NCBI GenBank assembly: GCA_030840285.1
Contig: JAVEES010000416.1
Span: 1-37,783 of the forward strand
Source of the DNA: Pseudonocardiales bacterium
GTDB lineage: Bacteria > Actinomycetota > Actinomycetes > Mycobacteriales > Jatrophihabitantaceae
DNA: 37,783 nt
Direction: 5' to 3'
The notes beneath the pieces are model-generated. The model had not been told where the DNA came from. It searched no databases and saw only the letters and a list, made by a program, of their open reading frames with translations. Shown here piece after piece: positions 27,664-30,434 of the stretch. A program made the position numbers and the translations under genes. The first letter of the stretch is position 1; each line of letters opens with the position of its first letter.

Positions 27664-28209
27664 ATGGCTCAGATATCTCGACGTGCGTTGCTGGGCAGCA
27701 CCGTCATCGCGATCGCCGCGGCCACCGGCGCGGCTCTGGGTACGAGCAAGTCGGTTCATCACAAGATCGCCGTCCCGCCCCCGCAGCCGCCGTCGGCGCT
27801 GACTGATGCGCTCGCGGCCCAGCGGCGGTTGCTGGCAGGTTATGACGCGGCGATCGCGGCCTCGCCCTCCGCCTTGCTGAGCGCATTGCGCGCCGATATC
27901 GCCAGTCACGCCGAGGCTCTTGGCGCCCTGCTGGAGAACTACCCGGGCTGGCGGCTCGCCCACAACGTAGCTGGCACCCCGGTGCCGAGCACCCTCGCAT
28001 CAGCCACGTCAGCCCCGGCGACGCCAGGGGGCGGGCAGGCCGTGGCGGGGACGGTGGTGGCCTTGGCCTCGGCAAGTTCGGCGCTGGAGTCCCGGCTCGC
28101 GACAGAGTGTGTCCAGTGGCCAGCTACTGACCGCAACGCGGCAGCGGCAGTCCCCCTGCTCGGCAGCATGTCTGCCTGCTTGTCCGCCCACCTGACGGTG
28201 CTGCGATGA
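27664..28209 (+). CDS. Tat-signal (SRRALLG) secreted small protein, function unknown (Rv2843-like position)
   Basis: MAQISRRALLGSTVIAIAAATGAALG signal; divergent from rimP; coupled to DUF4439 gene. Confidence 0.8.
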   Translation: MAQISRRALLGSTVIAIAAATGAALGTSKSVHHKIAVPPPQPPSALTDALAAQRRLLAGYDAAIAASPSALLSALRADIASHAEALGALLENYPGWRLAHNVAGTPVPSTLASATSAPATPGGGQAVAGTVVALASASSALESRLATECVQWPATDRNAAAAVPLLGSMSACLSAHLTVLR

Positions 28210-28664
28210 CGACGCCTTCGACGGCGCCCACCATGGACGCGCTGCAGCGGGTGCTCGCCGCCCATCACCAGGCAGTGTTCGCCTATTCGGTTATCGGCGT
28301 GCACCTTGACGATGCCGAGCAGGTCGCGCACGCTCGATCGTTTCAGCAAGCACACCGTGACGCGCGGGATGTGACCGCCGGCCAGGTGGCCGCGCTGGGC
28401 GCTACTCCGGTGCCGGCCGCCGCGTCCTACCAGCCGAATGAGCACGTCACCGACGCAGCTACCGCTCAGCGCTGGGCGTTGCAGGTCGAGCAGGATGCGG
28501 CAGCCGCTTACCGGTACCAGCTGCTGAGTACGGCCGCTTCGGACTCAGCCACCCAGACCCGCAAGTCAGCACTCGCCGGCTTGCGTGGCGGCGCCGAGAA
28601 CTCGCTGTACTGGCGGGCGTTGCTGACCCCCGCTACGCCGACGGTGCCCTTTCCCGGCGGCTGA
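28206..28664 (+). CDS. Ferritin-like domain protein (DUF4439)
   Basis: LQRVLAAHHQAVFAYSVIGVHL...FQQAHRDARDVTAGQVAALGATPVPAAASY; ATGA overlap with upstream gene. Confidence 0.82.
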   Translation: MTTPSTAPTMDALQRVLAAHHQAVFAYSVIGVHLDDAEQVAHARSFQQAHRDARDVTAGQVAALGATPVPAAASYQPNEHVTDAATAQRWALQVEQDAAAAYRYQLLSTAASDSATQTRKSALAGLRGGAENSLYWRALLTPATPTVPFPGG

Positions 28665-28709: not shown

Positions 28710-29387
28710 TCAGCTCCACCCATCCAGGACGGCGGGCAGTTCCGACAACTCGCTGATCACGGCGTCCGGCCGCCCCTCCACTCCAGTCGTCTGCCAGGCC
28801 GGGATCTGGCTGTGCGGGATATGCACGGCACGCATGCCGACCTGCTGCGCTCCGTAGATGTCTTCGAACAGCCGGTCGCCGACGAAAACGGCCCGGGCGG
28901 GATCGGTGACTCCGACAGCGTCCATCGCCGCGCGGAATGCCTGCGGGTGAGGTTTCACCCAGTCGATCTCGGAGGAATAGACCGAGCCGTCGATGAGGTG
29001 GTGAATCGCATCGCGCTCGAAGATCCTTTCGTGCTCGGCGCGCGGCCACACCGTGTTCGACAGGATGCCGATCTTGATTCCGCGCGCCCGCAACTCTCTC
29101 AACATCGGCTCGGCCTGCGGATCGGTGAAGCTGTGCTCGTCCCACCACTGGTAATAGGTTCGAAGCTGGGTCTCGGTCAGCACCAGTTCCGCTCTCGAGA
29201 GGATGTCGTCCATCGTGCCGCTGCGATGCGTGTCCTTGACTGTGGCCCACACCAGCGCCTCGGCCTCGTGCAGGGCCTTGGCCTGGGCCTCGTCCTGGAT
29301 TACCGAAAGCCAGCAGGCGAAGGGGTCGATGGTGTGCCAGGGGGTCAGGGTGCCGCCCCAGTCGAAGAGCACTGCGTCGATCGTCAT
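28710..29387 (-). CDS. HAD family hydrolase
   Basis: MTIDAVLFDWGGTLTPW motif I; IGILSNTVWPRAEHE; VKPHPQAFRAAMDAVGV; VFVGDRLFEDIYGAQQVGMRAVHI. Confidence 0.93.
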   Translation of the reverse strand: MTIDAVLFDWGGTLTPWHTIDPFACWLSVIQDEAQAKALHEAEALVWATVKDTHRSGTMDDILSRAELVLTETQLRTYYQWWDEHSFTDPQAEPMLRELRARGIKIGILSNTVWPRAEHERIFERDAIHHLIDGSVYSSEIDWVKPHPQAFRAAMDAVGVTDPARAVFVGDRLFEDIYGAQQVGMRAVHIPHSQIPAWQTTGVEGRPDAVISELSELPAVLDGWS

Positions 29388-29446: not shown

Positions 29447-29570
29447 AGTTGATCAACGAACCAGACCCAGCCGGTGATCATCTCGCGTTAGACGCTGCTA
29501 TGGCGACTGCTATGGCGACCACAGACGTGAGTTGATCAACGAGCCCGTACCCCAGCCGGTGATCAACGAA
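29447..29570. repeat. Composite intergenic repeat: two direct 34-36 bp copies flanking an inverted repeat and a 12-bp tandem
   Basis: AGTTGATCAACGA...CCCAGCCGGTGATCA at 29447-29480 and 29530-29565; inverted arms 29475-29491 / 29522-29538; TGCTATGGCGAC x2 at 29496-29519. Confidence 0.8.
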
Positions 29571-29579
29571 CAGAGGGCA

Positions 29580-30434
29580 TCAGAACAGGACTGTGCTCAG
29601 GGTGCTCTGCTGCTGCATGCCGAGCCTGGCGTACATCCGGCGCGCAGGCTCGTTGAAGTCGTTGACGTAGAGGCTGACCGACGGGGCGCGTTGCAGGGCA
29701 TAGGCGATGACCGAGGCCATCGCCGCGGTTCCGATGCCCCGACCCCGCAGATCCGGCCTGACCCAGACGCCTTGGATCTGCGCGGTTCCCGACCCGAGCG
29801 CGCCGATCTCCGCCTTGAACTCGACCGCACCGGCCTGGTCGAAGCGCGCGAAGGCGCGTCCACTGGCGATGACCTCGGCGACCCTCGCGCGATAGCTTGC
29901 CGCGGTCCCGTGCGCGAGCGGCGATATCCCGAGTTCTTCGGTGAACATCGCAGTCGCGGCGGGTAGGAAGCGCGCAAGCTCCGAAGGCGCGACCGGCCGG
30001 ACCAGCGGGTCCGCTGACATCGCCGCGCGCTGCCCCGTCACCAGCAGCGGTTGACGGTGTCTGCGGGCTCGGCTCGGTCCCCAGTGCGGGGCCAGGACCG
30101 GCCAGATCGCATCGACGCTGGCCGCGGGGCCCACGATCGAGGAACAGCCACGCGCGCCACGGGCGAGCTGCTCGGCGATGGCAATGAGCCCTGCTGCGTC
30201 CTGGCCCACCGGGATCAGGTTGCCGCCGTGGAAGACCGCCGCGCGCAGCACGGGCGCATCGGCATCATCGATCCCCCAGATGAAACCACCCAGGCGCCGG
30301 GAGTCGAGGTCTGGTGCCAGGGCGAGCCGCGAATCCAGCACGCAATTGACTACCAGGTCACGCTCGACCAGCGCGCGCAGTCCGTCCGCATCGCGCGCGG
30401 TGAGGACCCGCGGACGGGTCTGCAGCGCGGTCAC
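29580..30434 (-). CDS. GNAT N-acetyltransferase with DUF4081 domain (Rv2867c-like)
   Basis: VTALQTRPRVLTARDADGLRALVERDLVVNCVLDSRL; IQGVWVRPDLRGRGIGTAAMASVIAYAL...SLYVNDFNEPARRMYARLGM. GTG start 30434. Confidence 0.9.
   Translation of the reverse strand: MTALQTRPRVLTARDADGLRALVERDLVVNCVLDSRLALAPDLDSRRLGGFIWGIDDADAPVLRAAVFHGGNLIPVGQDAAGLIAIAEQLARGARGCSSIVGPAASVDAIWPVLAPHWGPSRARRHRQPLLVTGQRAAMSADPLVRPVAPSELARFLPAATAMFTEELGISPLAHGTAASYRARVAEVIASGRAFARFDQAGAVEFKAEIGALGSGTAQIQGVWVRPDLRGRGIGTAAMASVIAYALQRAPSVSLYVNDFNEPARRMYARLGMQQQSTLSTVLF

Follow-up and report, generated by a model that had tools for sequence, protein, structure and literature searches.

Results

Structure of the repeat patch between the GNAT and HAD genes

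The window analysed here was the whole 37,783-nucleotide stretch of a Pseudonocardiales bacterium contig (JAVEES010000416.1, assembly GCA_030840285.1), and it contained a patch of repeats between two genes of the minus strand. One of them encoded a GNAT acetyltransferase with DUF4081 (29580..30434, with the start possibly further out in an ORF reaching to 30650), and the downstream one encoded a HAD-family hydrolase (28710..29387). The stop codon of the GNAT gene was located 35 nt, and the start of the HAD gene 81 nt, from the match of a covariance model of the repeat (R2, described below). The first-pass annotation had assigned the patch to the upstream region of the HAD gene, but its association with the GNAT 3' end was at least as close. 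Further along, a small DUF4439 protein was encoded at 28233-28664 beside an unassigned 173-aa ORF (27688-28209), convergent with the HAD gene.

At the centre of the patch was a 64-bp imperfect palindrome (29475..29538) that ran from TGATCA to TGATCA and represented a long variant of the element. Its left arm TGATCATCTCGCGTTAG (29475..29491) faced the right arm CAGACGTGAGTTGATCA (29522..29538) with 13 Watson-Crick pairs out of 17, two wobbles and two mismatches. The loop held a tandem duplication of the 12-bp TGCTATGGCGAC (29496..29519), which gave the length of 64 bp instead of 52 bp. An outer TGATCA box was present on each side, namely GTTGATCAACGA on the left (29448..29459, box at 29450) and GGTGATCAACGA on the right (29558..29569, box at 29560). 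Starting from 29440, the segments followed each other as the GTTGATCAACGA box, GGTGATCATCTCGCGTTAGACGC, two copies of TGCTATGGCGAC, CACAGACGTGAGTTGATCAACGA and GGTGATCAACGA. There were also direct copies: AGTTGATCAACGA occurred at 29447-29459 and 29530-29542 with a spacing of 83 bp, CCCAGCCGGTGATCA occurred at 29466..29480 and 29551..29565 with a spacing of 85 bp, and the palindrome GTTGATCAAC was found at 29448-29457 and 29531-29540. The arms, loop repeats, outer boxes and CCCAGCCGGTGATCA copies are all given as read on the plus strand. All four of these observations (direct copies, inverted arms, tandem and palindrome) had been made in the first-pass annotation and were exact when the sequence was re-read; the element itself, however, was better delimited as 29475-29538, to which the outer boxes (29450 and 29560) were added.

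The window repeat exceeded chance. Its plus-strand RNA fold had a z-score of -3.7 and was not equalled by any of 200 shuffles. R2 matched it at 29468-29545 on both strands with 54.5 bits (E 1.2e-12) and 50.4 bits, scores that were not independent of the model because the window copy was among its 31 training sequences. The codon-usage gene call placed no gene over the element, which agreed with the earlier remark that no ORF explained it. The Rfam search produced no match above the gathering score and nothing overlapping the element, and the phage and plasmid records contained no match to the window region.

A dispersed family with a common architecture

The source genome was a 3.8 Mb draft consisting of 461 contigs. 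A blastn search of this genome with the window region alone returned 59 matches besides the region itself (60 in total), many of them on both strands because the element was a palindrome. The R2 model, built from 31 non-redundant aligned copies, identified 82 complete places at E < 1e-6, plus fragments, in 698 kb of element-bearing contigs together with the window. The basic unit was 52 bp long, exactly so in 41 of the 51 strictly palindromic copies, and the longer copies included forms of 61, 64 and 66 bp with a duplicated loop. Central duplications of 8-14 bp, like the 12-bp one in the window, were present in other copies as well. In the aligned copies the flanks were symmetric, being C-rich and then having TTTCGG ahead of TGATCA on either side. 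Generic 3'-end or rut composition was considered as a source of the C-rich flanks and rejected, since they were present on both sides regardless of the neighbouring gene end and exceeded generic 3' regions.

The outer boxes of the window copy also had their counterparts elsewhere. Within 80 nt outside the copies, we found 49 extra TGATCA-type boxes against approximately 9 expected from other intergenic DNA (about a fivefold excess), and 34 of the 82 copies had at least one such box beside them. Longer partial arms next to the elements kept their own side in the well-matched cases, left-type arms standing on the left and right-type arms on the right. The composite neighbourhood was a general property of the family and was not peculiar to the window. 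The partial arms looked like tandem half-arm duplications produced by slippage at the hairpin, and the 12-bp loop repeat would fit the same process. No offset-specific direct repeat indicative of target-site duplication was detected in 81 pairs of flanks, and no gene was seen between two unpaired facing arms, the layout of an autonomous element, in the 698 kb read from the source genome.

Two individual copies had additional features. At L140:4105-5370 (contig C46), the loop of a copy was interrupted by a minus-strand gene for a 392-aa protein that, on visual inspection, looked like an IS30-type transposase; IS30-type insertion sequences prefer palindromic targets. At L087:12900-13200 (contig C60), the element was preceded by a small tandem array of CGGCTGATCCCCGCT-like units and followed by one of GGTGGAATGCGGGC units.

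Lineage-specific gain of the window copy

The order of the GNAT gene followed by the HAD gene was conserved in 11 readable genomes of the same family (G001, G002, G003, G004, G005, G007, G008, G010, G011, G013 and G019). In all 11, the intergenic stretch was short and lacked such a palindrome. Since the site was empty in every readable same-family genome, the window copy was gained in one lineage. Two of the genomes that were empty at this site, G004 and G007, carried their own copies elsewhere. The reverse case was also found, namely two G007 copies located between genes whose orthologues in the source genome stood approximately 31 bp apart without a copy. A single convergent site had the element in both the source genome and G007, each with the stem version of its own genome; this one case is equally compatible with inheritance and with repeated insertion. 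The GNAT-HAD gap itself (L151, L150) contained a short tandem repeat acacgggtgttgtccggcga in about three copies in G004 and a shorter version of it in G007.

Position relative to gene ends and stop codons

According to a simple codon-usage gene finder applied to the draft genomes, 81 of the 82 copies in the source genome were intergenic, with 25 between convergent, 38 between tandem and 13 between divergent genes, and 5 at contig edges. The background gaps of at least 70 nt were distributed as 49 convergent, 200 tandem and 98 divergent, so that convergent gaps were over-represented among the copies (p = 2.7e-5 by gap count). The pattern was stronger in other genomes, where 47 copies were convergent, 40 tandem and only 4 divergent. 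In tandem gaps the element was closer to the stop of the upstream gene, and over all sides in the source genome the median distances to a stop and to a start were 44 and 106 nt, respectively. Moreover, the terminal TGA of the TGATCA end was the exact stop codon at 25 gene ends in all genomes together, compared to only about 4 genes that ended elsewhere inside an element. Dispersal, an intergenic position at gene 3' ends and lineage-specific gain at the window site can be considered established.

An early sign of a wobble-favouring strand had suggested an RNA strand preference. This candidate was dropped when the better-scoring strand in tandem pairs proved to have the same orientation as transcription in 20 cases and the opposite one in 19, a split that is expected if either strand serves. 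No terminator-like site with a U-tract was called at the elements, and the consensus flank was opposite to that of a terminator, being T-rich before the hairpin and A-rich after it.

Relatives and covariation of the stem

The first-pass annotation had mentioned similar motifs in other actinobacteria, and model searches of other genomes found them. The R2 model had matches in 19 of 61 genomes, counting the source genome. The carriers on public contigs included the metagenome-assembled genomes Pseudonocardiales bacterium RYN_165 and Actinomycetes bacterium Emb289P4bin49. In the relatives, too, TGATC stood at either end of the element, and the centre was often CATRG- or CAGGG-like. The length was nearly constant within each genome (mostly 51, 52 or 62 bp, with other genomes ranging from 46 to 64 bp), but the stems differed, as in TGATCACCACCGGTTTTTCGTCGCCATGG... 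of G041, which belongs to a different family of the order, and TGATCAAGAGGGCGTCGTGG... of G011. Within one genus, the copy number varied from none detected up to tens.

A more general model of the element form (R3) matched 51 of 250 genomes of the order at E 1e-4. In the class sample at E 1e-5 it matched many genomes of the family f34, which is outside the order, and some of these copies shared even the inner stem with the source genome (e.g., GGTTTGGTGTCGCCATGGCGACACCAAACC in G418). Because a limited number of candidates was scored per genome, these counts for relatives were lower bounds, and they were obtained from draft genomes with rough model calibrations. R3 produced only two matches in a phylum-wide draw of 297, the source genome and one weak single, and no match in 200 kb of the element-free G005. 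Therefore, the model was specific.

Twenty-four 52-bp elements from several genera could be aligned without gaps, with invariant TGATC ends and a well-conserved centre. Between genera, 19 of 26 pairs had changed on both sides, and there were 109 double-change cells compared to 38 in shuffles and at most 44 with slid partners; the elements of other genomes were partly chosen for palindromicity, which inflated the pairing but not the number of different stems. Double changes were also in excess within G014 (25 against at most 14 in shuffles). In the source genome, compensatory change of the arms was not above shuffles, and the claim of compensation therefore rests on the between-genus comparison and G014. 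Taken together, the architecture stayed constant while the stems changed in a compensated manner, both from genus to genus and in one other order, and the terminal TGA served as the stop codon of many neighbouring genes.

Palindromes of other types were also observed in the relatives. G016 had a second, unrelated family of 57-59 bp palindromes CTTTGCACCTTTCAGCGCCCC...GGGGCGCTGAAAGGTGCAAAG with at least 3 copies in about 126 kb (L212:5143-5201, L213:6496-6552 and L217:5101-5157), and a strong palindrome AACGCGATCGTGTAACAACCGGC...GCCGGTTGTTACACGATCGGGTT was located at L171:1605-1661 of G007.

Discussion

Comparison with known systems

The element resembled the REP elements and BIMEs associated with RAYT transposases (PMC2817692) in having tens to hundreds of intergenic hairpin palindromes per genome, a lineage-specific sequence and composite neighbourhoods. 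Unlike them, its carriers lacked a RAYT: the Y1_Tnp domain of this family (PF01797) was absent from the source genome, 18 other genomes of the family and 12 further element-bearing genomes including complete ones, with all five control genomes positive. In addition, the aligned copies did not have a GTAG or CGTC tag at one end but symmetric TTTCGG|TGATCA flanks, and the unit of 52-64 bp with a 20-26 bp stem and TGATCA at both ends differed from the 20-40 bp units of GTAG/CGTC REPs (PMC3733652). Thus, the earlier designation as a REP/MITE-like dispersed intergenic element held in kind, given at least 82 copies, their nearly exclusive intergenic location and the empty orthologous sites, but not in the strict sense of REP, for which the Y1_Tnp domain, the tag and target duplications were missing. 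We found no description of this repeat in open-licence papers, and an earlier account elsewhere is possible. A paper on HIP1 named TGATCA, but only among the hexamers that are over-represented in some cyanobacteria (PMC4390886), and the REP papers that we searched did not mention the word 'actinobacteria'.

Similar to MITEs, the element was a short, dispersed, non-autonomous inverted repeat that varied between relatives, but it was palindromic almost throughout and had neither target-site duplications nor an end-matched transposase that we could find. Intrinsic terminators include a U-less hairpin type that has been discussed for actinobacteria. The element was like them in forming a long stable hairpin right behind stop codons, often between convergent genes, and unlike them in being a member of a dispersed sequence family, in lacking a U-tract and in having some copies between divergent genes. 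In Neisseria and Pasteurellaceae, inverted uptake-signal sequences of approximately 10 bp, present in about a thousand copies, double as terminators. These are also short dispersed sequences paired as inverted repeats at gene 3' ends; however, the unit described here was a 52-bp palindrome whose stem varied between genera.

Alternative explanations

We consider it about evenly probable that the TGATCA-bounded palindromes of this high-copy, REP-like, non-RAYT family, the window patch among them, act as a two-sided gene end composed of a stop codon and a hairpin. A module that works through a hairpin in either transcript would be consistent with the position behind stops, the convergent preference, the stop codons embedded in the element and the compensation in the stems. 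The missing U-tract, the terminator-reversed flank, the 13 divergent copies of the source genome and the non-compensatory arm variation within that genome speak against it.

The main rival is a purely selfish non-autonomous repeat tolerated behind genes, which we regard as possible but clearly less probable. In this case, a nuclease or transposase would recognise the TGATCA-bounded hairpin in single-stranded DNA and copy it, there would be no host function, and the copies would survive mainly behind stop codons because insertions in promoters and genes are selected against. Lineage-specific gain and the wide range of copy numbers within one genus are consistent with such a repeat, as are the genome-specific stem version and nearly fixed length (51, 52 or 62 bp), which resemble a coevolving repeat and enzyme. 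However, the partner enzyme was not found, Y1_Tnp being absent from the carriers, and there were no target-site duplications. Tolerance alone does not readily explain why genes end exactly on the terminal TGA, or why there is a convergent excess, which was observed outside the order as well.

The second rival is a protein site at the DNA level, with the palindrome between transcription units serving as the target of a nucleoid, topoisomerase or regulatory protein. The TGATC ends invariant in 24 of 24 aligned elements, the conserved CATRG-like centre and the lack of strand preference relative to transcription argue for it, and so does the sharp length per genome, often exactly 52 bp or about five helical turns. 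Nevertheless, it seems unlikely to us, since the stem between the ends and the centre varied freely as long as it was paired, which a duplex-binding protein would not need, and since the elements of other genomes, with lengths from 46 to 64 bp, do not keep to a strict helical phase.

True REP/BIME elements moved by a RAYT transposase, the partner suspected in the first-pass annotation, would share the high copy number, the intergenic palindromes and the mosaic neighbourhood. This explanation is very improbable: given the Y1_Tnp results, the missing tag and the length, it is refuted for the searched genomes, unless the enzyme has diverged beyond the reach of PF01797. The first-pass annotation had also considered a recombination scar, and the direct copies with their spacing of 83-85 bp might suggest such a one-off event or a local repeat without a family. 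The 82 places in the genome, together with the related elements of other genera, of other families and of a second order, refute this explanation with near certainty.

A possible two-sided gene end and its significance

If the elements are indeed two-sided gene ends, the TGA at either edge would close reading frames arriving from both sides. The 20-26 bp hairpin, formed by either transcript, would then end or shield the mRNA and limit read-through into the opposing or next gene; it is from position, embedded stops and stem compensation that we infer such an effect on transcription or mRNA. New copies would be made by a DNA-level process without a Y1 transposase. Similarity between the arms may be maintained by selection for the hairpin, by template switching from arm to arm in the course of replication, or by both; template switching would also account for the extra half-arms and for the duplicated 12 bp in the loop. 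As a broader and more tentative proposal, to which we give somewhat less than an even chance, such gene-end modules may occur across at least two orders of Actinomycetes, with stems rewritten in each lineage, persistent ends, centre and length, and multiplication without any known REP transposase.

In Proteobacteria, short palindromic repeats have been described extensively and are tied to RAYT transposases. If our proposal is true, a transposase-less counterpart across actinobacterial orders, its frame constant and its stems freely compensated, would raise two testable questions. One is what copies the repeat, and the other is whether a mobile repeat has been recruited in actinobacteria to serve as a gene end that combines a stop codon with a hairpin. 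The family offers ready covariation for separating structural selection from arm-to-arm template switching.
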